Shown here piece by piece: positions 33,267 to 62,515 of a DNA stretch of 64,000 nucleotides. The notes under the pieces are model-generated. The model was given only the letters and a program-made list of their open reading frames with translations. It ran no database searches and had not been told where the DNA came from. Location: NCBI GenBank assembly GCA_945898215.1, contig CAMDHY010000002.1, positions 62,001-126,000 of the forward strand, in the 5' to 3' direction. The position numbers and the translations under genes are program-made. Each line of letters opens with the position of its first letter. Position 1 is the stretch's first letter. This stretch comes from Pseudoxanthobacter soli DSM 19599 (GTDB taxonomy: Bacteria > Pseudomonadota > Alphaproteobacteria > Rhizobiales > Segnochrobactraceae).

Positions 33267-33674
33267 TCAGCGGCGGTCGGGGTTGGCGGCCTTCATCGCC
33301 TGGGCGGTGATGTCGCCGGCGGCCTTGGCGGTCGCCTCGCCGACGTGGCGGGCCTGTTCGGCCATCACCGCCATGCGCTCCTGCAGGTACTTCGCCTGCA
33401 GTTCCATCGCCTCCTGCACGCTCGTCGACTGCACCAGCCGCTGGGCGAGGCGGAAGGCGGCGGCGATGTTGTCCTCGGCGGCGGAGAGGACCTGCTCGTT
33501 GAAGTCGACAGCGCCGTCCTTGGCCTTCTTCGTCTGGGTGTCGACGGTCGTCACCGTCTTCTGGGCCGAGGCCATGAAGTCCTCGAAGGCCTTGCGGGCC
33601 TGGTCGACGGTGGTCTCGGCATAGCGCCGCATCTCCGGCGGAATCTCGAACTGCCCGGTCTTGTCGGTCGGCAT
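33267..33674 (-). CDS. Second phasin-family protein
   Basis: A 135-residue helical protein with the phasin core: IPPEMRRYAETTVDQARKAFEDFMASAQKT (about 10-40) and ALQAKYLQERMAV-like segment near residue 95. It is shorter than its neighbour and lacks the Pro/Met-rich N-terminus. ATG 33674 lies in the gap with the divergent PdhS-like kinase gene (33675-33906). That gap holds an extended -10 (TGGTAATAT on the minus strand, near 33835) that may serve this gene. Confidence 0.9.
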   Translation of the reverse strand: MPTDKTGQFEIPPEMRRYAETTVDQARKAFEDFMASAQKTVTTVDTQTKKAKDGAVDFNEQVLSAAEDNIAAAFRLAQRLVQSTSVQEAMELQAKYLQERMAVMAEQARHVGEATAKAAGDITAQAMKAANPDRR

Positions 33675-33906
33675 GGCGATCGCTCCCTTGTCCCTCGTTG
33701 CGGGACCCGCAGGAGGGCCCCGCGAGCCCCACCGCCGGCGAGTGTCGCACGAACCGCCGCCCGGCGTTAACCACCGATCGAACCGCCGGCCCGCCGCCGG
33801 GCCGCGGCGATGGACCGGGGCGGATGCCATTGATATTACCATTCCCTTGACGATCGGCGGTCGGCGGCCTTTCGAACGGGGGTCGAGCGGGGGGAGTTGC
33901 GGGACC

Positions 33907-36900
33907 GTGCCGATCCTCGGTGTCGATCGTGATCGCTACCTGACCTTGACCGGCGTCGCCGGCATCGGGCGGCATCTGCTGTCGCACCGCGCCGTGCTCG
34001 TCGTCGACCGTGCCGGCACCGAACTCGTCTGGTTCAATCCCGTCGCCGCCCGCGCCCTCGGCATCGCCGGCCTCGACGACCCGCAGCCGCGCCGGGAGGC
34101 GCTCGCCTCCGCCCTGCTGTCGGCACTCCGTCGGCGCATCGCTGGCGGCTACTACCCGCGCGGCGGCCTCGAGCGCCTGCGTATCGAGGTCGATCTCGCC
34201 AGCCGCCCTCTCACCTGTCGCCTCGAGCCGGTGCGTCTGCCGGGCGGCGAGGCGGCGCTGCTCGTCGACGTCGTGGAGCCGCTCGGCGACAGCCCCGGTG
34301 ATCCGGCCGCGGCGGCCTGCCGGCTGGTTGCCGGCGACGGCTTCGCGGCGGTGATCGAGCGTGGCGGCGCCGTGCGCGCCTCCGCCGGTTCGGGCGAGGC
34401 GGCGGGCGCCTTCGGCGGCGTCGCCGGCGCGCTGCGGGCGGCGGGCCAGCACCTGCCCGGCAGCCCGCGCGCACTCTCGCTCGCCGACGCCGCGACGCTG
34501 CTCGTCGTTCCCGCCCCCGAACCGTCCGACCGTCACGGCGCGCCCGGTCACGACCGCACCGCCGCGGCGCGGCGCGGCGAGGTCGCGGTCGGCGCACCCG
34601 GGCGATCGATGCCGCGGTGGGATGAGGCCCCGCCAGAGCTTCCACGCGCACAGCAGCCGTCCGCGCCACCGCGCGCTCCCGACTTCGATCTCGTGCCGGT
34701 GGAGGCCCCAACGGCCGCGCCCATCGCCGCCGCACCGCCTCCGGCGACCACGGCGCCGGTGCCGCCGACCGTCACGGCACCGCCGGTGCCGCCTCCGGCA
34801 GCCGCGCCTCCGACGGCGGCCGCACCGCCGGAACCGCTGACGCCGCCGGAGCCGGCTTTCCCACCGATGCCGCCGCCGCCGTCCGGCCGCCGCAGGACGC
34901 GGCGGTTCTCGTGGCAGATGGACGCCGCCGACCGCTTCACCTTCGTCTCGCCGGAACTCGTCGAGGAGGTCGGCGTCCGGGCGGGCGACGTCGTCGGCCA
35001 GACCTGGCGGCAGGTCGCCGACCGCCTCGGCTTCGACCGCGAGCGGCGGATCGACAAGGCGTTGGCGAGCCGCGCCGCCTGGAGCGGGCAATGGGTAGTA
35101 TGGCCGGCCGATGACGGCTGGGCGGTGCCTATCGACTTCGCCGCCATCGCCACCACCGACGAGGCGGGCCGCTTTGGCGGCTTCCGCGGCTTCGGCCTCG
35201 TCCGCGCCGCCGAGGCGAAGGCGCCGCCGGATGCCGTCACCGCGCCGTCCGTCGAGCCCGACACGGCCGATGCACCACACACGGTCGAGGGTCCCGAGCC
35301 GGCTGCCCCGATCACCGTCGTGGCGGCGCCGTCCGCCAGCCCGCCGCCGGCCGCGCCCTCCGAACCGGCGCCGCTCCCCGCTCCGCCGCGGCCGGCGGAG
35401 ATGGTCATGCCCTCGTCGCCGCCGGTCCCGTCGCCGGAGCCGGTGGCGGTGCCGGCGCCGCCGCCGCCGCCGCCGGAGCACGAGGCCCGGCCGCCGCCGT
35501 CGCCGCCACCGGCCGCCGTCAGCGGTCCTCCGCCGGTGTCGGACGGCGGTCTCGATCCGGCGCCCCGGCAGAGCGACCGTGGCGGCGCGGACCGCCTCAG
35601 CCGGCCGGAGCAGGAGGCGCTGCATCTCATCGCCGCCGCCCTCGGCGCCCGCATCGAGGGCGACGACCGGCCGTCGCCGGCCGCCGAGGAGTGGGACGCC
35701 GCCGAGTTCGACGAAGAGCCGTGGCCGGGCCGTCGTCCGGTCCCCGCCGGCAACGCGCCGATGCCGCCGCCCGTCGCGCCGCTGCGGCCGTCGCTCGGGC
35801 CACCGGCGGCGGCCGAGGACACCGACCTCATCGACCGCATGCCGGTCGGCGTGCTGATCTGCCGGGACGGCGACGTCGTCCACGCCAACCCGGCGGCGCT
35901 GTCGCTGCTCGGTCACGCCGATGCCGCCGCGCTGTCGGCCGCCGGCGGGCTTGGTGCGGTGTTCGCGGCGCCGACGCCCGAGGCGCCGGTGGAACGGCGC
36001 GTCGCGGTGGAGCGGGCGGACGGCACCCGCCTGCCCGTCACCGCCCGGCTGCAACGCGTGCCGTGGCGCGGCGCCCGCGCCCTGATGGTGGTGCTGTCGC
36101 CGGAGCCCGCCGGTGCCGAGACCCGGCCGGCCGAGACGGGGCCGGCCGCCGCGTCGCCGTCCGCCGGCGACCCGCCGCGGGGCGCCGTCGTGGCGGCGTT
36201 CGCCGAAGCGGTGCTGCTGGTCGACCGGCGCGGGCTCGTGACGACCGCCAATCCGGCCGCGGCCGCCCTGCTCGGCCGCCCGGTCGAGGAGATCGAGGGC
36301 GCGCTCGTCACCCACCTCGTCGCGCTCGACAGCCGGCTGCCGGTCGGCGCGGTGCTGGCCGATCTCTTTTCCGATCCGGCCGGAGCGGCGGCCCCGATCG
36401 AGTGCGAGTTCGTGGTGCTGCACCCGGAGCGAGGTCAGGTGCCGGTGGCGGCGGGCTTCGGCCGCCTCGCCGGCTCGCCGCCGCCGGGCTTGTGCATCGT
36501 GCTGCGCGACCTCACCCGCTTCCGCGAGACCGAGGCGGCCCTGACGCTCGCCACCCGCGAGGCGGAGCGGGCGAGCGCCCACAAGTCGGAGGTTCTGGCG
36601 CGCGTCAGCCACGAGATTCGCACGCCGCTGAACGCCATCATCGGCTTCGCCGAGGTGATGCTCGAGGAGAAGTTCGGGCCGCTCGGCAACGAGCGCTACC
36701 GCGAGTACCTGCGCGACGTGCGCGCCTCCGGCGCCCACATCATGAGCCTCGTCAACGACCTGCTCGACCTCGCCAAGATCGAGGCCGGCCGCGCCGACCT
36801 CGCGCCGGAGGCGGTGTCGCTGAACGAGGTGGTGCAGTCGTCGATCGCCTTGATCCAACCGCGTGCCAGCGCGGAGCGGGTGTTCGTGCGCTCGACGCTC

Positions 36901-37269
36901 GCCGCCGGCCTGCCCGACGTGCTCGCCGACCGCCGCGCCCTGCGCCAGATCCTGCTCAACCTCCTGTCGAATGCGGTGAAGTTCAACGCCGCCGGCGGCC
37001 AGGTGATCGTCTCGACCCGCCGCGACGAGGGCGGTGGTGTGTCGCTGCGCGTGCGCGACACCGGCATCGGCATGTCCGGCGAGGAGATCGCGCTCGCTCT
37101 CGAGCCGTTCCGCCAGGTGAACGGCGACCGCGAGGGCACCGGGCTCGGCCTGCCGCTGACCAAGGCGCTGGTCGAGGCCAATTCCGCGACCTTCTCGATC
37201 CAGTCGGCCCCGGGCCGGGGGACCCTCGTCGAGGTGCTGTTCCCGGCCGCGCGCGTGCTCGCCGCCTGA
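33907..37269 (+). CDS. pdhS: PdhS-family cell-cycle histidine kinase with long Pro/Ala linkers
   Basis: About 1120 residues, cytoplasmic. The N-terminal domain (1-170) is followed by a Pro/Ala-rich linker (about 210-325), a PAS-like domain (RFSWQMDAADRFTFVSPEL, about 333-440), a second Pro-rich linker (about 440-560), and PAS domains from about 640 (DRMPVGVLICRDGDVVHANPAAL) and 755 (AVLLVDRRGLVTTANPAAAALLG). The C-terminal kinase has His902 in ARVSHEIRTPLNAIIGFAEV, then NLLSNAVKFN, VRDTGIGMS and GTGLGLPLTKALVEAN. This C-terminus matches PdhS, the DivJ/PleC-like kinase controlling DivK in Brucella and relatives. GTG 33907 is my start; the first domain begins soon after it. Confidence 0.85.
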   Translation: MPILGVDRDRYLTLTGVAGIGRHLLSHRAVLVVDRAGTELVWFNPVAARALGIAGLDDPQPRREALASALLSALRRRIAGGYYPRGGLERLRIEVDLASRPLTCRLEPVRLPGGEAALLVDVVEPLGDSPGDPAAAACRLVAGDGFAAVIERGGAVRASAGSGEAAGAFGGVAGALRAAGQHLPGSPRALSLADAATLLVVPAPEPSDRHGAPGHDRTAAARRGEVAVGAPGRSMPRWDEAPPELPRAQQPSAPPRAPDFDLVPVEAPTAAPIAAAPPPATTAPVPPTVTAPPVPPPAAAPPTAAAPPEPLTPPEPAFPPMPPPPSGRRRTRRFSWQMDAADRFTFVSPELVEEVGVRAGDVVGQTWRQVADRLGFDRERRIDKALASRAAWSGQWVVWPADDGWAVPIDFAAIATTDEAGRFGGFRGFGLVRAAEAKAPPDAVTAPSVEPDTADAPHTVEGPEPAAPITVVAAPSASPPPAAPSEPAPLPAPPRPAEMVMPSSPPVPSPEPVAVPAPPPPPPEHEARPPPSPPPAAVSGPPPVSDGGLDPAPRQSDRGGADRLSRPEQEALHLIAAALGARIEGDDRPSPAAEEWDAAEFDEEPWPGRRPVPAGNAPMPPPVAPLRPSLGPPAAAEDTDLIDRMPVGVLICRDGDVVHANPAALSLLGHADAAALSAAGGLGAVFAAPTPEAPVERRVAVERADGTRLPVTARLQRVPWRGARALMVVLSPEPAGAETRPAETGPAAASPSAGDPPRGAVVAAFAEAVLLVDRRGLVTTANPAAAALLGRPVEEIEGALVTHLVALDSRLPVGAVLADLFSDPAGAAAPIECEFVVLHPERGQVPVAAGFGRLAGSPPPGLCIVLRDLTRFRETEAALTLATREAERASAHKSEVLARVSHEIRTPLNAIIGFAEVMLEEKFGPLGNERYREYLRDVRASGAHIMSLVNDLLDLAKIEAGRADLAPEAVSLNEVVQSSIALIQPRASAERVFVRSTLAAGLPDVLADRRALRQILLNLLSNAVKFNAAGGQVIVSTRRDEGGGVSLRVRDTGIGMSGEEIALALEPFRQVNGDREGTGLGLPLTKALVEANSATFSIQSAPGRGTLVEVLFPAARVLAA

Positions 37270-37295: not shown

Positions 37296-37312
37296 AATAG
37301 AAGCATTCCAAA
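37296..37312. promoter_or_regulatory. Candidate Irr/ICE box before the iron permease
   Basis: AATAGAAGCATTCCAAA matches the iron-control element consensus TTTAGAA-N3-TTCTAAA at 11 of its 14 defined positions. It lies 100 bases before an iron(III) ABC permease gene, a typical Irr target in Hyphomicrobiales. The surrounding 30 bases are AT-rich, against the GC-rich background. Confidence 0.6.
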
Positions 37313-37411: not shown

Positions 37412-39151
37412 ATGACCGTTTCGTTCCGCACCGTCGAAGACCCGGCGAGGCCGCCGTCGGCGCCGCTCGGCGGGATCGACGCCGTGGCCGGCGGCACGAC
37501 GCCCGCCCCCGTGCCGAAGCGGACCGGTCACGATGCCGGCATCGTCGCCCTGGTGATGGTGCTGGCGGCGCTTGCCGTGGCGCCGCTCCTGGCGCTCGCG
37601 GGCATCGCGGCGACGCCGGCGGAGGGCGTGTGGCGCCATCTCGCCACCACCGTGCTGCCGGGCGCCGTGGCGACGACGCTCCTCCTGATGCTCGGCGTCG
37701 GGCTCGTCACCGTCGTCGTCGGTGTCGGCACCGCCTGGCTGACGGCGGCCTTCAGCTTTCCCGGGCGGCGGCTGTTCACGTGGGCGCTGCTTTTGCCGCT
37801 GGCGGTGCCGACCTACATCGTCGCCTACGCCGCCGTCGAGGTGATGGACTTCACCGGCCCGCTGCAGACGGCGGTCCGCGCGGTGACCGGCGCCGCCACC
37901 CGGCGCGACTACTGGTTCCCGCAGGTGCGCACCCTGCCCGGTGCCATCGTGGTGATGGGGCTGGTGCTCTACCCCTACGTCTATCTATCCGCCCGCGCTG
38001 CCTTCCTGCTGCAGTCGGCCACCGCCATCGACGTGGCGCGGACGCTTGGCGCCGGGCCGGCACGGGTGTTCTTCCGCGTCGCGCTGCCGCTCGCCCGCCC
38101 GGCGATCGTCGTCGGGGTCAGCCTGGCCCTGATGGAGTGCCTGAACGACATCGGCGCGGTACAGTTCTTCGGCGTGCGCACCCTGACGGTGTCGATCTAC
38201 GACACCTGGCTCAACCGCGGCAGCCTGGCCGGTGCCGCCCAGATCGCCTGCGCCATGCTCGTCGTCGTGCTCGCGCTGGTGCTGACCGAGCGCGGGGCGC
38301 GTCGCGGCCGCCGTTTTGCGGCCGCCTCGACCCGCCACGTGCCGCTGGTGCCGGTGCCGCTGACGGGCTTGCGCGGTACGCTCGCGGCCTTTGCCTGCGC
38401 CGTGCCGGTGCTGCTCGGCTTCGTGGCGCCGGCGGGCGTGCTGCTCTCCTCGGCGCTGCGGCGGACGGAGCAGCTCGCCGATCCGGGTCTGCACGCCGCC
38501 GCCTGGAACAGCCTGTCGTTCGCGCTGATCGCCGCCGCAGTCACGGTGGCGGCCGGCACGGCGATCGCCTATGCGGTGCGCCTGCAGCCGCGCAAGCTCG
38601 TGAAGGCGGCGGCGGCGGTCGCATCCGTCGGCTACGCTGTGCCGGGAACGGTGCTCGCCGTCGGCATCTTCGTGCCGCTCGCCGCCCTCGACAACGCCGT
38701 CGACGGCATGATGCGCCAGCTCTTCGGCCTGTCGACGGGGCTGCTGCTCGCCGGCTCCGGGGCCGGCCTCATCTACGCCTACGCGGCGCGCTTCATGGCG
38801 ATGTCGGTGGGCTCGGTGGAAGCGGGGATGGCGAAGCTGTCGCCCCATCTCGACATGGCGGCCCGTACCCTCGGCCGCGGCGCGCTCGGCACGCTGCGGC
38901 GGGTGCTGCTGCCGCTGATGCGCCCGGCGCTCACCACCGCGGCGCTGCTCGTCTTCGTCGACGCCATGAAGGAACTGCCGGCGACGATCCTCCTGAAGCC
39001 CTTCAATTTCGAGACGCTGGCGACCCTCGTCTACGCCGCCGCCTCGCGCGAGCACTTCGAGGAGAGCGCTGTGGCGGCGCTCGCCATCGTGCTGGTCGGG
39101 CTGCTGCCGGTGGTGCTGCTGGCGCGCACCACCGCGGCAGTGCGGCGCTGA
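37412..39151 (+). CDS. fbpB: Iron(III) ABC transporter permease, fused two-domain type
   Basis: A 579-residue inner-membrane protein of about 12 TM segments in two homologous halves. Each half carries an EAA loop, RTLGAGPARVFFRVALPLARPAI (about 210) and RTLGRGALGTLRRVLLPLMRPAL (about 490). This is the FbpB/SfuB type that moves ferric iron delivered by a periplasmic binding protein. The binding protein and ATPase genes are not adjacent and must be elsewhere. ATG 37412 is chosen. A candidate ICE box lies in the gap upstream. Confidence 0.9.
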   Translation: MTVSFRTVEDPARPPSAPLGGIDAVAGGTTPAPVPKRTGHDAGIVALVMVLAALAVAPLLALAGIAATPAEGVWRHLATTVLPGAVATTLLLMLGVGLVTVVVGVGTAWLTAAFSFPGRRLFTWALLLPLAVPTYIVAYAAVEVMDFTGPLQTAVRAVTGAATRRDYWFPQVRTLPGAIVVMGLVLYPYVYLSARAAFLLQSATAIDVARTLGAGPARVFFRVALPLARPAIVVGVSLALMECLNDIGAVQFFGVRTLTVSIYDTWLNRGSLAGAAQIACAMLVVVLALVLTERGARRGRRFAAASTRHVPLVPVPLTGLRGTLAAFACAVPVLLGFVAPAGVLLSSALRRTEQLADPGLHAAAWNSLSFALIAAAVTVAAGTAIAYAVRLQPRKLVKAAAAVASVGYAVPGTVLAVGIFVPLAALDNAVDGMMRQLFGLSTGLLLAGSGAGLIYAYAARFMAMSVGSVEAGMAKLSPHLDMAARTLGRGALGTLRRVLLPLMRPALTTAALLVFVDAMKELPATILLKPFNFETLATLVYAAASREHFEESAVAALAIVLVGLLPVVLLARTTAAVRR

Positions 39152-39246: not shown

Positions 39247-39828
39247 ATGCCCTCATCGAGCTTGCGCTTCCGACTGCGGGAGCGCACCGCCTCGCGCCAT
39301 GCGGCGGTCGACGAGGCCGTCGGCGCCTTCAAGACCCAGTCGGACTATCGGCGCTATCTCGCCGGCCTCCACGCCTTCCGGGCGCCCTTCGAGGCGGCGA
39401 TAGCCGCCGGGCCGCTGCCCGCCGATGCCGACGACTGGGAATTCGCGCCCCTCGTGCCGCTGATCGAGGCGGACATGGCCGATCTCGGACTGCCGGTCCC
39501 GGCGGGCCCGGCGGTTCTCGGGCAGGTTCCGCCCGTCGCCACCCTGGAGGAGGTGGCGGGGCGGCTCTACGTCCTGGAGGGATCGGCGCTCGGCGCCCGT
39601 GTCCTCGTGGTGGAGACCCGCGCCCTCGGGCTCGACGAGCGCTACGGCGCCCGCCACCTCGTCGCCCAGAGCCGCGGCGGCGCGGCCTTCGGGACGTTCG
39701 CCGCGTGGCTGGACCGGGCCGCGCTCGACGAGGATGCGGTCGTCACGGCGGCGGTCTCCACGTTCGTCGCCGCCGAGCGCGCCTTCGCCGCCCCCGCTGC
39801 AATCGGACACGCCGATGCGCTGGTCTGA
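39247..39828 (+). CDS. bphO: Biliverdin-producing heme oxygenase
   Basis: A 193-residue heme oxygenase. Proximal His18 is in RERTASRHAAVDEAVG. The distal helix has LEEVAGRLYVLEGSALGARVL (about 100-120). It is the short bacteriophytochrome-associated (BphO) type. It splits heme to biliverdin, iron and CO. Its last 14 bases overlap the start of the bacteriophytochrome gene, the normal arrangement for chromophore supply. Here the photoreceptor is broken, so the enzyme may now serve only iron release from heme. Confidence 0.9.
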   Translation: MPSSSLRFRLRERTASRHAAVDEAVGAFKTQSDYRRYLAGLHAFRAPFEAAIAAGPLPADADDWEFAPLVPLIEADMADLGLPVPAGPAVLGQVPPVATLEEVAGRLYVLEGSALGARVLVVETRALGLDERYGARHLVAQSRGGAAFGTFAAWLDRAALDEDAVVTAAVSTFVAAERAFAAPAAIGHADALV

Positions 39829-40255
39829 AGCGCGTCCCGGGGAGCCGGTCGACCTCGGCAACTGCGATCGCGAGCCGATCCACACGCCCGGCAGCATCCA
39901 GCCCCATGGCTGCCTGATCGCGTGCGACGCCGAAGCGGCGCTGGTCCGGCGCCACTCCGCCAACGCGGCGGCGATGCTCGGTCACGTCGGGCCGCTCGCC
40001 GAGGAGACGCTCGACGGCGTCGCCGGCGCGGAGGCCGCGTCGCCGAAGGCCGGGTGTTCGCTACCCACGCGCTGTCGCGGGTGCTGCCGGACGCGGAGGC
40101 CTACGCCGACCGCACCACCGGCGTGCTGGCGGTGCCGCTGTCGCAGACGCCGCGCGACTACCTGTTCTTCTTCCGCAAGGAACTGGTTCGCACGCTGGAA
40201 TGGGCCGGCAATCCCGGCAAGTCCTACGCGACCGGCCCGCTCGGCGACCGACTGA
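39815..40255 (+). pseudogene. bphP: Bacteriophytochrome 5' remnant (PAS fragment)
   Basis: From ATG 39815 the frame encodes the bacteriophytochrome N-terminus: the biliverdin-attachment Cys17 in GNCDREPIHTPGSIQPHG, followed by PAS sequence as far as about residue 75 (ending GAEAA at 40039). It then runs into non-homologous Arg/Cys/Pro-rich sequence and stops at 40255. The rest of PAS, the whole GAF domain and the first half of PHY are absent from the window. At about 40039 homology resumes in another frame within PHY. So this is a deletion of about 350 codons that also shifted the frame. Confidence 0.8.
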
Positions 40256-41433
40256 CACCGCGCAAGAGCTTCGCCATCTGGAAAGAAACGGTGCGCATGC
40301 AGTCGCAGCCGTGGACCGATCTCGACCGCGAGATCGGCGAGGCGGCGCGCTCGATGCTGGCGGAGGTGGTGCTGCGCCACAACGAACTGATGGCCGACGA
40401 GCGCGAGAAGGCGGACGTGCGCCAGCGCATGCTCAACGAGGAGCTCAACCACCGCGTCAAGAACATCCTCGCGGTGATCAAGTCTGTGGTCGGCCACCCC
40501 GTCGAGGCGGGCCGCAGCCTCGAACGCTATGTCGAGGCGCTGGAGGGCCGCATCCAGGCGCTCGCCGTGGCCCACGACCAGGTGGTACGCGGCGACGGCG
40601 GCGGGCTGTTCTCCGACCTCCTCGAGGCCGAACTCTCGCCCTACCGCAGCGCCGGCCCGACGATCATCCTCGACGGGCCGCCGGTGTGGCTCGATGCGCG
40701 CGCCTTCTCGGTGCTGGCGCTGGTGCTGCACGAGCTCTCGACCAACGCGGCGAAGTACGGCGCGCTGTCGGTGCCCGGCGGCCGCCTGGACGTGACCTGG
40801 CGACGCGACGACCAGAACGGCTGCGTGGTGGCCTGGCGCGAGCAGGGCGGGCCGCACGTTCCGCCGCCGTCGCGCGAGGGCTTCGGTTCGGCCCTGATCG
40901 AGCGATCGATCCCGTACGATCTCGGTGGCGAGAGCAGCGTCTGCTATAGGCCCGAGGGGGTCGAGGCGCGCATCCGGGTGCCGGCCCGGCACCTCTCGGA
41001 CGCCGGCCAGCTCGCCGACGTGTCGAAGCCACGGGCCGCCGCCGCCGCCTTGGGTGCCCGGCCCGTTCTCGACGGCTCGATCCGCGTGCTCCTGGTCGAG
41101 GACCAGTTGCTGATCGCCATGGATGTCGAGCAGATGCTGGCGGCGGCGGGCCTGACGCAGGTGACCACCGCCGCCTCCGTCCCGGAGGCGCTGCGCCGCA
41201 TCGCCGCCGCGGCGCCGGACGTCGCCGTCCTCGACGTCAATCTCGGCGTCGCCACCTCGATCCCGGTGGCGGAGGACCTGCAGCGCCGCGGCATCCCCTT
41301 CGTCTTCGCCACCGGCTACGGCGATTCGACGATGATCCCCTCAGCCTTCGCCGGCGTGCCGGTGGTCCGCAAGCCCTATGGCGGCCCGGCCCTGACGGCG
41401 GCGATCGCGAAGGTGCTGGGCGGCTGGGGGTAG
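39922..41433 (+). pseudogene. bphP: Bacteriophytochrome 3' part: PHY end, HWE kinase and receiver
   Basis: This frame becomes protein-like at 40039 (AEGRVFATHALSRVLPDAEAYADRTTGVLAV). It continues through the end of the PHY domain (RELVRTLEWAGNPGK, LTPRKSFAIWKE), a HWE histidine kinase (ELNHRVKNILAVIKSVVG, HELSTNAAKYGALS) and a C-terminal receiver (VEDQLLIAMD, VLDVNLGV, KPYGG). Kinase and receiver are undamaged. It has no sensible start of its own; ATG 40297, GTG 40051 or other internal starts might produce a light-blind kinase. Before 40039 the frame is only Arg-rich shadow. It may be a pseudogene or a reused kinase. Confidence 0.75.
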
Positions 41434-43638: not shown

Positions 43639-44649
43639 TCAGGCCGGCGTCCCGCGCAGCGCGTCGAGGCCGCGCAGCACCCGCTCCGGCGTGATCGGCA
43701 TCTCGTCGACGCGCACGCCGCATGCATCGAAGATGGCGTTGGCGATCGCCGGGATCGGCGAGTTCGCCGTCATCTCGCCGATGCCCTTGGCGCCGTAGGG
43801 ACCGTTCTTCGCCGGCCGCTCGATGATCGCCGAGCGCATCTCGGCGAGGTCTCCGGGCCCCGGCATCAGGTAGCCGGCGAAGTCGGTCGGCCCGTGCGAG
43901 CGGTCCGGGTAGTAGGGCTCGGTGGTCTCGTAGAGGGCGTGGCTGATGCCCATCCAGGCGCCGCCGACGATCTGCTGGTGGGCCATCGCCGGGTTCATGG
44001 CGCGGCCGATCTCGTAGACGTTGGTGAGCTTGAGCACGAAGACCTCGCCGGTCTCGTCGTCGACCTCGACCTCGGCGACGGTGCAGGCGTGGGCCTGGGC
44101 GGAGTCCGGGTCCATCCTGCCGGTCTCGGGATCGACGTCGCTCTTCGGCTTCATGTAGATGCCGCGGCCGGAGATGGTGCGGCCGTGCTTGAAGTGGGCG
44201 GCGAGGGCGAGCTCGACCAGGCCGATGCCCTTCTCCGGCGAGCCGACGACGTGGATGCGGCCTTCGCCGTCGCTGGTGAGGTCGTCGGGATCGACCTCGA
44301 GCTCGTCGGCGGCGACCTGCATCATCACCTCGCGCGCCTCCTTCGCCGCCATGATGACGGCGTTGCCGACGCGGTGGGTGGCGCGGCTCGCGAACGTGCC
44401 CATGCAGTGCGGGCCGGTGTCGGTGTCGGCGGTGTCGACCATGACGTTGCCGTAGGGCACGCCGAGGGTCTCGGCGGCGATCTGCGCCATGATGGTCTTG
44501 AGGCCCTGGCCGAGATCGACGCTCGACAGCGAGATGACGAAGCTGCCGGTGGTGGTGGCGTGGATCAGCGCTTGGGACGGGTCGCCGCCAAGGTTCATGC
44601 CGGTCGGGTAGTTGACCGAGGCCATGCCCCGGCCTCTGAGCCTAGCCAT
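43639..44649 (-). CDS. Molybdenum hydroxylase, MoCo subunit C-terminal half (separate polypeptide)
   Basis: A 336-residue second half of the molybdopterin-binding chain of the xanthine dehydrogenase family. It starts MARLRGRGMASVNY, contains ISLSSVDLGQGLKTIMAQIAAETLGVPY (MoCo domain 2), and carries the catalytic glutamate Glu292 in GAKGIGEMTANSP. In most relatives this is fused to the preceding half. Here a separate ATG, with GGGAGA six bases ahead, overlaps the upstream stop by eight bases. Sizes match the 50/37 kDa split in nicotinate dehydrogenase (NdhL/NdhM). Last gene of the operon. Confidence 0.85.
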   Translation of the reverse strand: MARLRGRGMASVNYPTGMNLGGDPSQALIHATTTGSFVISLSSVDLGQGLKTIMAQIAAETLGVPYGNVMVDTADTDTGPHCMGTFASRATHRVGNAVIMAAKEAREVMMQVAADELEVDPDDLTSDGEGRIHVVGSPEKGIGLVELALAAHFKHGRTISGRGIYMKPKSDVDPETGRMDPDSAQAHACTVAEVEVDDETGEVFVLKLTNVYEIGRAMNPAMAHQQIVGGAWMGISHALYETTEPYYPDRSHGPTDFAGYLMPGPGDLAEMRSAIIERPAKNGPYGAKGIGEMTANSPIPAIANAIFDACGVRVDEMPITPERVLRGLDALRGTPA

Positions 44650-46018
44650 GGGCGGTCTCCCGGGTGAGCGACGACATCTGGGTGAAGCGATCGGGCAGGG
44701 TGCGGCCGGAAATCCGCGCCGCCTCCTGCACGACCTCGACGAGGGCGGCGCCCTCGACGATCTTGCGGTGGGCCTTCATGTCGCCGTCGCGGTAGGCGTT
44801 GATCAGGCGGAACTCGAACGGGTCGATGCCGAGCATCCGCGCCAGCCGGTCCATCTGCACCTCGAGGTCGAAGTCGCCGATCGTCACGCCAAAGCCGCGC
44901 ATCGCCGAGGACGGCGTGCGGTTGGTGTAGACGCAGTGCGCATCGACGTGGACGTTCGGGATCGCGTAGGGGCCCGGCATGTGGGCGGCGGCCTTGGTGG
45001 TGCCGTAGGGGCTGTGGCGCGAATAGGCGCCGGCATCGACGTAGAGCGTCACCTTGCGGGCGACGATGCGGCCGTCGGCCATGACGCCGTCCTTGATGAT
45101 GATGCGCTCGGCCGCGCGGGGGGAGGAGACCTGCATCTCCTCGTGGCGGCTGTAGGCGTACTTCACTGGCTTGCCGGTCAGCATGGCGGCGAGCGTCGCG
45201 ATCGGCTCGACGATGACGTCGACCTTGCCGCCGAAGCCGCCGCCCACCGTGCCGCCGACGAGGCGGAGCTTGCCGAACGGCAGGCCGAGGATGAGCGCCA
45301 TGTTGTCGAGGGTGAAGAACAGCGCCTGGGTGTTCGAATAGACCGTGAAGCGGCCGGAGCCCTCGGGCTTGACGATGCAGCCGGTGGTCTCGGTCGGGGC
45401 GTGCTCGATCGGCGCCGACTGGTAGCGGTGCTCGACGACGTGGTCGGCGGTCGAAAACGCCTCCTCGACGTCGCCGAAGCGGATGCGCCGGCAGTGGTGG
45501 CCCTCGTAGACGAAATAGTTCTTGCCGTGCGGCTTGATCGCCGGCGTCTCCGGCTTCACCGCCTCCTCGACGTCGAAGACGGCCGGCAGGTCCTCGTACT
45601 CCACCACCACCTTCGACGCGCCTTCCTCGGCGGCGGCGAGCGTCTCGGCCAGCACGGCGCAGATCTGCTCGCCGAGGAAGAGGACGCGGTCCTCCGGCAG
45701 CACGGGCTCATCGTTCGGCTCGACGCCGATGAGGCGCAGGATCGTGTACCAGTTGTGCGGCACGTCCTTGTGGGTCAGCACGCGGACGACGCCCGGCACC
45801 GCCAGCGCATCGCGGGCGTCGATGTGTTTGATCAGGGCATGGTGGCGGGTCGAGCGCACCATCTTCAGGTGCAGCATCCCTGGAAACGAGACGTCCTCGT
45901 AGAACTGCGTGCGGCCGGTGACGTGGCCGCGCGCGTCCGAGCGCTCGACGGTGGTGCCGACCACCTTCAGCGGCTCGCCGCGCTCGTCGGCGAAGAAGTG
46001 GGTGAGGATCTCTTCCAT
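44642..46018 (-). CDS. Molybdenum hydroxylase, MoCo subunit N-terminal half
   Basis: A 458-residue first half of the large subunit: the a/b hammerhead domain (VGTTVERSDARGHVTGRTQFYEDV, about 18-130), then MoCo domain 1 with GGTVGGGFGGKVDVIVEPIATLAAMLTGKPV (about 245) and TPSSAMRGFGVTIGDFDLE (about 370). It ends in its own short tail at TAG, inside the start region of the C-terminal half. ATG 46018 is chosen; the longer frame upstream overlaps the iron-sulfur subunit. The substrate cannot be told; oxidation of an N-heterocycle or aldehyde is expected. Confidence 0.85.
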   Translation of the reverse strand: MEEILTHFFADERGEPLKVVGTTVERSDARGHVTGRTQFYEDVSFPGMLHLKMVRSTRHHALIKHIDARDALAVPGVVRVLTHKDVPHNWYTILRLIGVEPNDEPVLPEDRVLFLGEQICAVLAETLAAAEEGASKVVVEYEDLPAVFDVEEAVKPETPAIKPHGKNYFVYEGHHCRRIRFGDVEEAFSTADHVVEHRYQSAPIEHAPTETTGCIVKPEGSGRFTVYSNTQALFFTLDNMALILGLPFGKLRLVGGTVGGGFGGKVDVIVEPIATLAAMLTGKPVKYAYSRHEEMQVSSPRAAERIIIKDGVMADGRIVARKVTLYVDAGAYSRHSPYGTTKAAAHMPGPYAIPNVHVDAHCVYTNRTPSSAMRGFGVTIGDFDLEVQMDRLARMLGIDPFEFRLINAYRDGDMKAHRKIVEGAALVEVVQEAARISGRTLPDRFTQMSSLTRETAHG

Positions 46019-46029
46019 CTCGATGCTCC

Positions 46030-46527
46030 TCAGGCCGCCCGGGACGGGCGGGCGGCGCGCAGATCGGCGGCCGCCTCGAGGATCGCGTCGATGATCGCCG
46101 CGTAGCCGGTGCAGCGGCAGACGTTGCCGGAGATGGCGACGATCACGTCTTCGCGACAGGGGCTCGGGTTGCGCGCGAGCAGCGCCTTCGCGGCCATGAT
46201 CATGCCGGCGGTGCAGAAGCCGCACTGGGTGGCGAAGCCGTCGATGAAGGCCTGCTGCAGCGGGTGCAGTTCGTCCGGTCCGGTGGCGACGCCCTCGAGC
46301 GTCTCGACGCGGGCGCCGTCGAGGGGCTCGACGAGGCAGAGGCAGCTCATCACCGGCTCGCCGTCGAGGATGACCGTGCAGGCGCCGCAGGAGCCGGTCT
46401 CGCAGCCCTTGCGGGTGGCGGTGAGGCCGAGCGCCTCGCGCAGCGCGGCGAGCAGCGTCGTGCCGGGCTGCACCAGGAAATCGCGGTGGCTGCCGTTCAC
46501 CTCGAGCGAGACGATGCTCGGTCGCAT
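46030..46527 (-). CDS. Molybdenum hydroxylase, 2x[2Fe-2S] small subunit
   Basis: A 165-residue iron-sulfur subunit. The plant-ferredoxin-type cluster is at KGCETGSCGACTVILDGEPVMSC (about 40-62). The second cluster uses QCGFCTAGM (about 100) and GNVCRCTGY (about 134). It passes electrons from the MoCo centre to the FAD subunit. It lies 11 bases upstream of the large-subunit first half. Confidence 0.95.
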   Translation of the reverse strand: MRPSIVSLEVNGSHRDFLVQPGTTLLAALREALGLTATRKGCETGSCGACTVILDGEPVMSCLCLVEPLDGARVETLEGVATGPDELHPLQQAFIDGFATQCGFCTAGMIMAAKALLARNPSPCREDVIVAISGNVCRCTGYAAIIDAILEAAADLRAARPSRAA

Positions 46528-60219: not shown

Positions 60220-60282
60220 CGTGCTAACGGTCGGCCTCCGGCGCGCCGCCCGGCGCGTCCGCCGCCGCCCGGAGCCTGCCCC

Positions 60283-61692
60283 ATGTCCGTAACCGCCGTC
60301 GCGCCGCACGCCTTCGAGGTGATCTCGCCGGTCGACGATCAGACCTACGTCACCCGCCCCTACGCCACCGCAACCGCGGTGGAGGCGGCGATGGCCGCCG
60401 CGGAAGCGGCGCAGAAGACGTGGCGCCGCACGCCGCTCGACCAGCGCGTCGCCGTCGTCAAGGCGTGGCTCGTCGAGATGGAGAAGCGCAGCGGCGACCT
60501 CGCCGACACGCTGTCGCGCTCGATGGGGCGGCCGCGGTGGCAGGCCGACGAGATGCCGCGCCTGAAGCTCGTCGGCGAGATCGCCATGCGGGAGGCGGCC
60601 GAGGTGCTGGCAGACGCGGCCTACCCGACCGACCCCGGCATCCGCCGCTACGTGCGCCGCGAGCCGCTCGGCGTGACGCTGTCGATCTGCGCCTGGAATT
60701 ATCCCACCGCGATGATGTCGATGCTCGTCACCGAGCCGCTCATCGCCGGCAACGTCGTCATCCTCAAGCACTCGCCGCAGACGCCGCTCACCGCCGAGAT
60801 CGCAGCAGAAGCCTTCGCCGCCGCCGGCGGGCCGGCCGGCGTCTTCCAGGCGCTGCACCTCTCGCACCCGGCGGCCGAGGCGCTGATCGGCTCGAACCGG
60901 CTCGGCGCCGTGCGTTTCATCGGCTCGGTCGGCGGCGGCCGGCGCGTCCATGCGGCGGCGGCCGGCACCCACACCCACGTCCACCTCGAGCTCGGCGGCA
61001 AGGACCCGGCCTATCTCCGCCCCGACGCCGATCTCGCGGACGCCATCCCGCTCCTGACCGAAGGCTGCTTCTCCAACGCCGGCCAGTCGTGCTGCTCGGT
61101 CGAGCGCATCTATGTCCACGAGGCGATCGCTGCCCGCTTCATCGAGGCGTTCACGGCGGACGCGGCGAACTGGACCCTCGGCCATCCGCTCGACGGCAAG
61201 CCGATGATCGGCCCGGTGGTGCGGGCGGTCGCCGCCGAGCAGATCAACGCCCGCGTCGCCCAGGCGATCGCGATGGGGGCCAAGCGCACCCATGCGGCGA
61301 ACCGCTTCGGCGCCGCCGAGCTCGGCCGCGCCTATGTCGAGCCGGAGGTGCTGGCCTCCTGCACCGCCGACATGCCGATCATGCGCGACGAGCTGTTCGG
61401 CCCCGTTGCCTGCATCCAGACGGTTTCGTCGGACGAAGAGGCGGTCGCGCTGATGAACGACAGCGAATACGGCCTGACGGCGAGCGTCTGGTCGGCCGAC
61501 ATCGCGGAGGCCGAGGCGATCGCGAGCGAACTCGAGGCCGGCACGGTGTTCGTCAATCGCTGCGACCACGCCGACCTCTATCTGCCGTGGGGCGGGGTGA
61601 AGTCCTCCGGCCTCGGCCGGGCGAACGCGAGGACGGGGGTGCTGGAGGCGACGCAGGCGAAGTCCTTCCACGTTCGCCGCCGCCTCGGCTGA
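60283..61692 (+). CDS. NAD(P)-dependent aldehyde dehydrogenase
   Basis: A 469-residue enzyme. It has CAWNYPTAMMSMLVTEPLIAGNVVILKHSPQTP (cofactor region, about 143-175), VRFIGSVGGGRRVHAAAA (about 208), general base Glu in HLELGGKDPAYL, catalytic Cys in GQSCCSVERIYVHEA (about 270) and the C-terminal ELFGPVACIQTV. It starts at ATG 60283. Substrate is unknown; together with the SDR and the formylglutamate-type amidase it may belong to breakdown of an amino-acid-derived compound. Confidence 0.9.
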   Translation: MSVTAVAPHAFEVISPVDDQTYVTRPYATATAVEAAMAAAEAAQKTWRRTPLDQRVAVVKAWLVEMEKRSGDLADTLSRSMGRPRWQADEMPRLKLVGEIAMREAAEVLADAAYPTDPGIRRYVRREPLGVTLSICAWNYPTAMMSMLVTEPLIAGNVVILKHSPQTPLTAEIAAEAFAAAGGPAGVFQALHLSHPAAEALIGSNRLGAVRFIGSVGGGRRVHAAAAGTHTHVHLELGGKDPAYLRPDADLADAIPLLTEGCFSNAGQSCCSVERIYVHEAIAARFIEAFTADAANWTLGHPLDGKPMIGPVVRAVAAEQINARVAQAIAMGAKRTHAANRFGAAELGRAYVEPEVLASCTADMPIMRDELFGPVACIQTVSSDEEAVALMNDSEYGLTASVWSADIAEAEAIASELEAGTVFVNRCDHADLYLPWGGVKSSGLGRANARTGVLEATQAKSFHVRRRLG

Positions 61693-61723
61693 GGCGGGGC
61701 GCCGGATTCGAGGGGACACCGCC

Positions 61724-62515
61724 ATGCTCGCCGCCGCGCCCGCCTTCACGCTGCCGGACGCGGCGACGCTCGCCGCCCTCGCGGCCGCCGGCGTCGAGGA
61801 GATCGCCGCCGCCCGGCCGGGGCCGCTGGCGCTGCTCTGCGAGCACGGCGGCAATGCCGTGCCGGCGCCGTGGGGCGACCTCGGGCTGCCGGCGGCGCTC
61901 TTCGCCTCCCACTTCGGCTACGACCCGGGGGCGGCGGCGCTGACGCGGGCGCTCGCCGCTCGGCTCGGCGCGCCGGCGGCGATCGGGCGCTGGTCGCGGC
62001 TGTTCGTCGATCTCAACCGCCAGGTACAGGCGTGGGAATGCGTGCGGCCGGACTGCTCGGGCATCCCGGTGCCGGGCAATCTCGACGTGACGCCGGACGA
62101 TCTCGCGGCGCGGCTGGCGGTGGCGCGGGCGCCCTTCGACGCGGCCGCGGACCGGGCACTCGCGGGGCGGGCGGTGGTGCTCTCGATGCACACCTGTACG
62201 CCCGTCTACCATGCCCACCGGCGTCCCTGGCCGGTCGGCGTGCTCTGGCGCGAGCGCGCCGTGCTCGCCGCGCCTCTCATCGACGCGCTGGCGGCGCAAG
62301 GCTACGATCCGGTGGGGGACAACGAGCCCTACGACTGGCGCGAGGCGGAGGGCTACACCCTGCAGGACACCCGCACCGGCGGCCGGGTCGCCCTCTATCT
62401 CGAGGTCCGGAACGACCTGCTGGCGACGGAGGCCGACGTCGCAGCGCACGCCGATCGCATCGGCGCGGCGCTGCAGACGGCGCTGGCGGACTGGGAGGCG
62501 CGCCGTGCGGGGTGA
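61724..62515 (+). CDS. N-formylglutamate amidohydrolase-family protein
   Basis: A 263-residue zinc hydrolase of the HutG / N-formylglutamate deformylase family. It shows the metal-binding CEHGGNAVP (about 38-46), SRLFVDLNRQV (about 90), SMHTCTPVY with a metal His (about 148-156) and YLEVRNDLL near the end. Family members remove formyl or acyl groups from amino-acid nitrogen. It lies 31 bases after the aldehyde dehydrogenase, probably in the same operon; hut genes are not nearby. Confidence 0.88.
   Translation: MLAAAPAFTLPDAATLAALAAAGVEEIAAARPGPLALLCEHGGNAVPAPWGDLGLPAALFASHFGYDPGAAALTRALAARLGAPAAIGRWSRLFVDLNRQVQAWECVRPDCSGIPVPGNLDVTPDDLAARLAVARAPFDAAADRALAGRAVVLSMHTCTPVYHAHRRPWPVGVLWRERAVLAAPLIDALAAQGYDPVGDNEPYDWREAEGYTLQDTRTGGRVALYLEVRNDLLATEADVAAHADRIGAALQTALADWEARRAG

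Follow-up and report, generated by a model that had tools for sequence, protein, structure and literature searches.

A probable young pseudogene of an Agp2-type bacteriophytochrome beside an intact heme oxygenase gene in Pseudoxanthobacter soli

Agp2-type bacteriophytochromes are bathy phytochromes, in which Pfr is the dark state. Their output part, as characterised in Agp2 and in other type 2 phytochromes from rhizobia, is an HWE kinase with a C-terminal receiver behind it (PMC11021371, PMC8117939). Light-blind phytochromes are also known in kind, an example being RpBphP4 (EMBO J 2007, cited in PMC6879726). The bphP gene of Pseudoxanthobacter soli DSM 19599 is related to the first group and, as described below, has probably joined the ranks of the light-blind by the loss of its chromophore core.

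The window, i.e., the whole stretch of DNA analysed, comprises 64,000 nt (assembly GCA_945898215.1, contig CAMDHY010000002.1, positions 62,001-126,000 of the forward strand) and belongs to a draft genome of 224 contigs that is 97.2% complete. The bphP gene (39815-41433) was translated in all frames and subjected to a Pfam profile search. For comparison, 80 named relatives were fetched and the 79 with a full gene were used, the eightieth being cut at a contig end. The analysis covers one genome of the species, and the nearest proteins, those of Methylopila turkensis and Amorphus coralli, are just 65-68% identical across the kinase part; the range for this part among full-length alphaproteobacterial homologues is 54-68%. 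The gene contains the following features:

39815..40039, plus strand: first bphP remnant, with the N-terminus, the bilin Cys motif NCDREPIH and the first part of the PAS domain (PF08446 positions 1-57 of 107; alignment to 79 relatives)
40037..40039, plus strand: deletion junction, uncertain by a few bases, at which 943-949 nt of PAS, GAF and early PHY are absent and the frame is lost (alignments; junction DNA unique in the genome)
40039..40383, plus strand: second bphP remnant, the C-terminal two thirds of the PHY domain with the tongue motif PRKSF retained (PF00360 positions 68-182 of 183; closest solved chains 8rjm/6g1z, E ~3e-51)
40253..40255, plus strand: TGA stop of the PAS reading frame, reached after 71 out-of-frame codons and giving a product of 146 aa
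40441..40680, plus strand: phospho-acceptor region of an HWE histidine kinase, NHRVKN, followed by the catalytic part (PF07536; motif residues conserved)
41086..41400, plus strand: receiver domain with the phospho-acceptor Asp in VAVLDVN retained (PF00072; alignment)

The protein in the frame of the ATG at 39815 begins with MRWSEARPGEPVDLGNCDREPIHTPGSIQPHG, a bacteriophytochrome N-terminus in which the bilin-binding Cys (CDREPIH) is present as in Agp2-type bacteriophytochromes. The PAS domain ends after about 75 codons. The PHY tongue motif PRxSF, present as PRKSF, lies in the frame of the kinase, which is open from 39829 to 41433 and in which both the HWE kinase and the C-terminal receiver were found above the Pfam cut-offs. 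As the PAS frame stops at 40253-40255, no single uninterrupted frame runs through the gene. A complete PAS-GAF-PHY core is absent: the Pfam search returned positions 1-57 of 107 for PAS_2, no GAF, and positions 68-182 of 183 for PHY. The first-pass annotation of this DNA had described the start of PAS as joined out of frame to late PHY, with an intact kinase and receiver behind it, and both points are borne out by the Pfam matches, the conserved motif residues and the comparison with relatives. It had also suggested aligning the region to related BphP sequences, and this placed an internal deletion at 40037-40039 relative to all 79 full-length genes, the sequence entering PHY at Pfam position 67-68.

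The size of the deletion is smaller than the about 350 residues first estimated. In the alignment with the 79 relatives, position 40039 is both the end of the last PAS column and the start of the first PHY column, and 312-317 residues are missing, most often 315. The DNA between the same two codons measures 942-948 nt in ten relatives, whereas in P. soli these codons overlap by one base; the loss thus amounts to 943-949 nt (~946) and is of the form 3n+1. The deletion edges share only a few bases in the relatives, so the exact junction cannot be assigned. All 79 relatives have an open, full-length bphP with the same domain order (PAS-GAF-PHY, HWE kinase, receiver), and a short form was not found among them. 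The short form is therefore derived.

The best solved matches of the PHY remainder are 8rjm, 6g1z and 6g1y (E ~3e-51), which we take to be structures of Agp2 (AtBphP2) of Agrobacterium. The P. soli gene resembles Agp2 in this PHY remainder, in its HWE kinase and in its C-terminal receiver, but unlike Agp2 it is missing the remainder of PAS, the entire GAF domain and the beginning of PHY, its frame is broken, and its product would have no phytochrome-type bilin binding or response. Since the chromophore core is gone, bathy character cannot be assigned to it. Two adjacent reaction-centre genes of the pufL/pufM type (contig C11, positions 60282-61947; E 1e-106 and 2e-99) indicate that P. soli is probably an anoxygenic phototroph, and the likeness to RpBphP4 is that of a phototroph's phytochrome that no longer senses light. 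The two cases differ in that RpBphP4 is reportedly a full-length protein altered at the chromophore site, whereas in P. soli the core is deleted and the frame lost. As there is no GAF domain, no bilin pocket and no other PHY domain in the genome, light sensing by the bphP product is lost. Earlier, two outcomes had been proposed for the locus, loss of light sensing or a regulator made from an internal start. By anatomy, the first holds for the bphP protein; the second is possible and is not favoured over a recent null allele, for reasons given below.

An intact bphP might still exist in the organism if the 946-nt gap had arisen in assembly, from a chimeric join or a mixture of strains. The draft state of the genome speaks for such an artefact, which would also explain at once why an intact heme oxygenase gene lies beside a dead bphP. 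In general, however, assemblers produce a false join of this kind only where there is a repeat or a chimeric read, and a search of the junction DNA against the genome revealed no repeat: the junction DNA occurs once, and elsewhere just short matches of 79-86% identity are found, so that there is no repeat to collapse. Also against an artefact is the scarcity of shared bases at the two deletion edges in the relatives. Furthermore, none of the other contigs carries the lost segment. A 311-aa Methylopila segment spanning the lost core matched nothing in the P. soli genome, in a search run without a positive control, and only one PHY domain was detected there. A second copy or a displaced core was rejected on these grounds: there are GAF matches on other contigs, and none of them matched the lost segment. 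Misassembly of bphP therefore seems unlikely to us, judging from the DNA around the junction.

The possibility that the sequence of the window is generally faulty was considered because of a suspected second frameshift, which proved to be a natural split. The large subunit of a molybdenum hydroxylase (43639-46225, minus strand) is encoded in two overlapping frames of 527 and 336 aa. In a second genome (G017; 73% identity), the C-terminal part likewise stands as a short frame of its own (400 aa), while a third genome (G015) has one long frame. The split thus looks natural rather than erroneous, and this, the only other split gene checked in the window, argues against generally poor sequence and hence against an artefact at bphP.

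Upstream of bphP, three features are relevant:

37298..37310, plus strand: putative Irr/iron-type palindrome-like site TAGAAgcaTTCcA, located before the ABC permease gene (sole match in 64 kb)
37412..39151, plus strand: two-domain ABC transporter permease (Pfam BPD_transp_1 in two stretches; NCBIfam matches all below cut-off)
39247..39828, plus strand: bphO, an intact heme oxygenase of 193 aa whose last 14 nt overlap the start of bphP (phmmer match to pa-HO of Pseudomonas, 1sk7, E=1.5e-13)

As the first reading had it, the heme oxygenase is intact, immediately adjacent to bphP and one gene downstream of the iron-type site. Two comparisons tie it to bphP. In 47 of the 79 relatives, the gene just upstream of bphP encodes a homologue of this heme oxygenase. 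Among 60 related genomes, excluding that of P. soli itself, 13 have both a match to the phytochrome PHY region and a homologue of this heme oxygenase, one has a phytochrome only, none an oxygenase only, and 46 neither. Because the oxygenase always occurs with a phytochrome in these genomes (13/13), the P. soli protein is, on this comparative evidence, the dedicated BphO of an ancestral bphO-bphP operon. The idea that it is an iron-scavenging enzyme independent of bphP was rejected, given that no oxygenase without a phytochrome was seen in the 60 genomes. A second role for bphO is nevertheless left possible by the iron-type site upstream, which may control it; TAGAAgcaTTCcA is the only such site in the window, where 0.01 would be expected, the pattern having been chosen after the site was seen. 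Like the BphO heme oxygenases linked to bphP, the P. soli protein is encoded directly upstream, with overlap, and is related to Pseudomonas pa-HO. Unlike them, it has a broken phytochrome partner, and a search of the genome revealed no second phytochrome. The real anomaly is that bphO is intact while bphP is not, which points to a recent loss. Of 26 nearly invariant positions, the protein has changed at two (A to T and W to F), a number equalled or exceeded by only two of 47 relatives; these two departures could be a faint hint of early relaxation.

Both profile libraries missed this gene: despite the PDB match to pa-HO, the P. soli bphO was scored at E 0.001 by Pfam and at E 1 by NCBIfam. In Methylopila turkensis, which has the nearest phytochrome relative, the heme oxygenase is located about 370 kb from this bphP (positions 781994 and 409436 of contig C1); the operon has therefore been broken up in that lineage.

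The remnants of bphP are well preserved. None of the three parts (PAS remnant, PHY remainder and kinase-receiver) breaks more positions at conserved columns than ordinary relatives do. The third-position GC content, 0.905 for the PAS part and 0.929 for the kinase part, is still typical of a coding gene and resembles that of neighbouring genes. The likelihood tree of bphP was a quick version in which the P. soli gene was placed without support, and no claim about rates is based on it. Two marks of a pseudogene, a disrupted frame and the loss of the defining domain, are found, whereas decay of the rest is not, although decay is not strictly required of a young pseudogene. The undecayed remnants fit a recent deletion and, judged by their sequence, fit a retained function of the kinase-receiver part equally well.

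This brings up the alternative that the deletion freed the kinase and receiver. Ribosomes that stop at 40255 might re-initiate at a nearby ATG, yielding a light-independent regulator of 378 aa, composed of a helical spine, an HWE kinase and a receiver, that would have been kept by selection:

40297..40299, plus strand: ATG that may serve as an internal start for a kinase-receiver of 378 aa, 41 nt past the PAS-frame stop (best anti-SD energy of the in-frame starts, -8.5)

The anti-SD energy of this ATG is better than those of bphO (-4.3) and bphP (-3.2) and denotes a fair ribosome-binding site. However, the ATG region and the GGAAAG upstream of it lie in codons that are conserved in the relatives, so they are not evidence of adaptation, and other internal positions score equally well or better, down to -10.5. 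In an AlphaFold model of the product (mean pLDDT 82.5, pTM 0.55), a long helix (8-66) is followed by an entire ATPase domain and the receiver, and the 378-aa chain is, going by the model, plausible as a protein. All catalytic motifs are kept without excess changes at conserved sites, but a recent deletion would leave the sequence just as free of decay, and no relative has a short form. We regard a freed and selected kinase-receiver as a doubtful alternative. Further-reaching and rather improbable is the scheme in which this single deletion created an always-on or differently gated kinase-receiver, translated in the order bphO, PAS peptide and re-initiated 378-aa protein, with the biliverdin being put to another use.

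Programmed frameshifting, by which both halves would be fused into one short protein, could be imagined because the two frames overlap from 40039 to 40255. Between 39901 and 40255, however, no slippery heptamer of the tested kind was found, and the fused product would have neither a bilin pocket nor the first third of PHY. We rejected this explanation, which is highly improbable.

The P. soli bphP is, in our judgement, probably an early-stage, recently inactivated pseudogene of an Agp2-type bacteriophytochrome, and as such ordinary in kind. A single internal deletion of about 946 nt would have removed the end of PAS, the whole of GAF and the first third of PHY, and would have shifted the frame. 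From the normal start, only a peptide of 146 residues would now be made, one half of which is out of frame and which has the bilin Cys but no bilin pocket, while bphO presumably still makes biliverdin for a client that is gone. The kinase and the receiver would be intact by descent, as the break is recent, and they are probably not made, or made weakly. The anatomy of the gene, the absence of the core, the ancestral operon and the lack of decay are shown, whereas the reality of the deletion in the organism, its recent date and the lack of any useful product from the locus are inferred. Its recency rests on the absence of decay and on the orphan bphO, as seen in a single genome that has no close relative, and selection acting on just the kinase-receiver would account for these facts as well.

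Provided that the deletion is real, the single phytochrome of a probable anoxygenic phototroph has only just been lost, and the dedicated biliverdin enzyme has so far stayed whole. Photoreceptor loss would then be caught here in a natural snapshot, and the succession of decay, with the sensor going first and the chromophore enzyme later, could be traced in sister strains. The locus would also offer a test, already set up by nature, of whether the kinase of a phytochrome has a role once the light-sensing part is gone.

The two other genomes of the family were searched and showed no reaction centre, no phytochrome and no bphO. An empty-site comparison in the same-family genomes was attempted at murA, which is present there, but the neighbouring genes differ and neither phytochrome nor bphO occurs, so the comparison is uninformative on the deletion.

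Directly before the iron-type site, a plus-strand gene (33661-37269) encodes a multi-PAS histidine kinase of 1202 aa, which is similar to PdhS, a cell-division kinase (NCBIfam 4e-157, below the curated cut-off).
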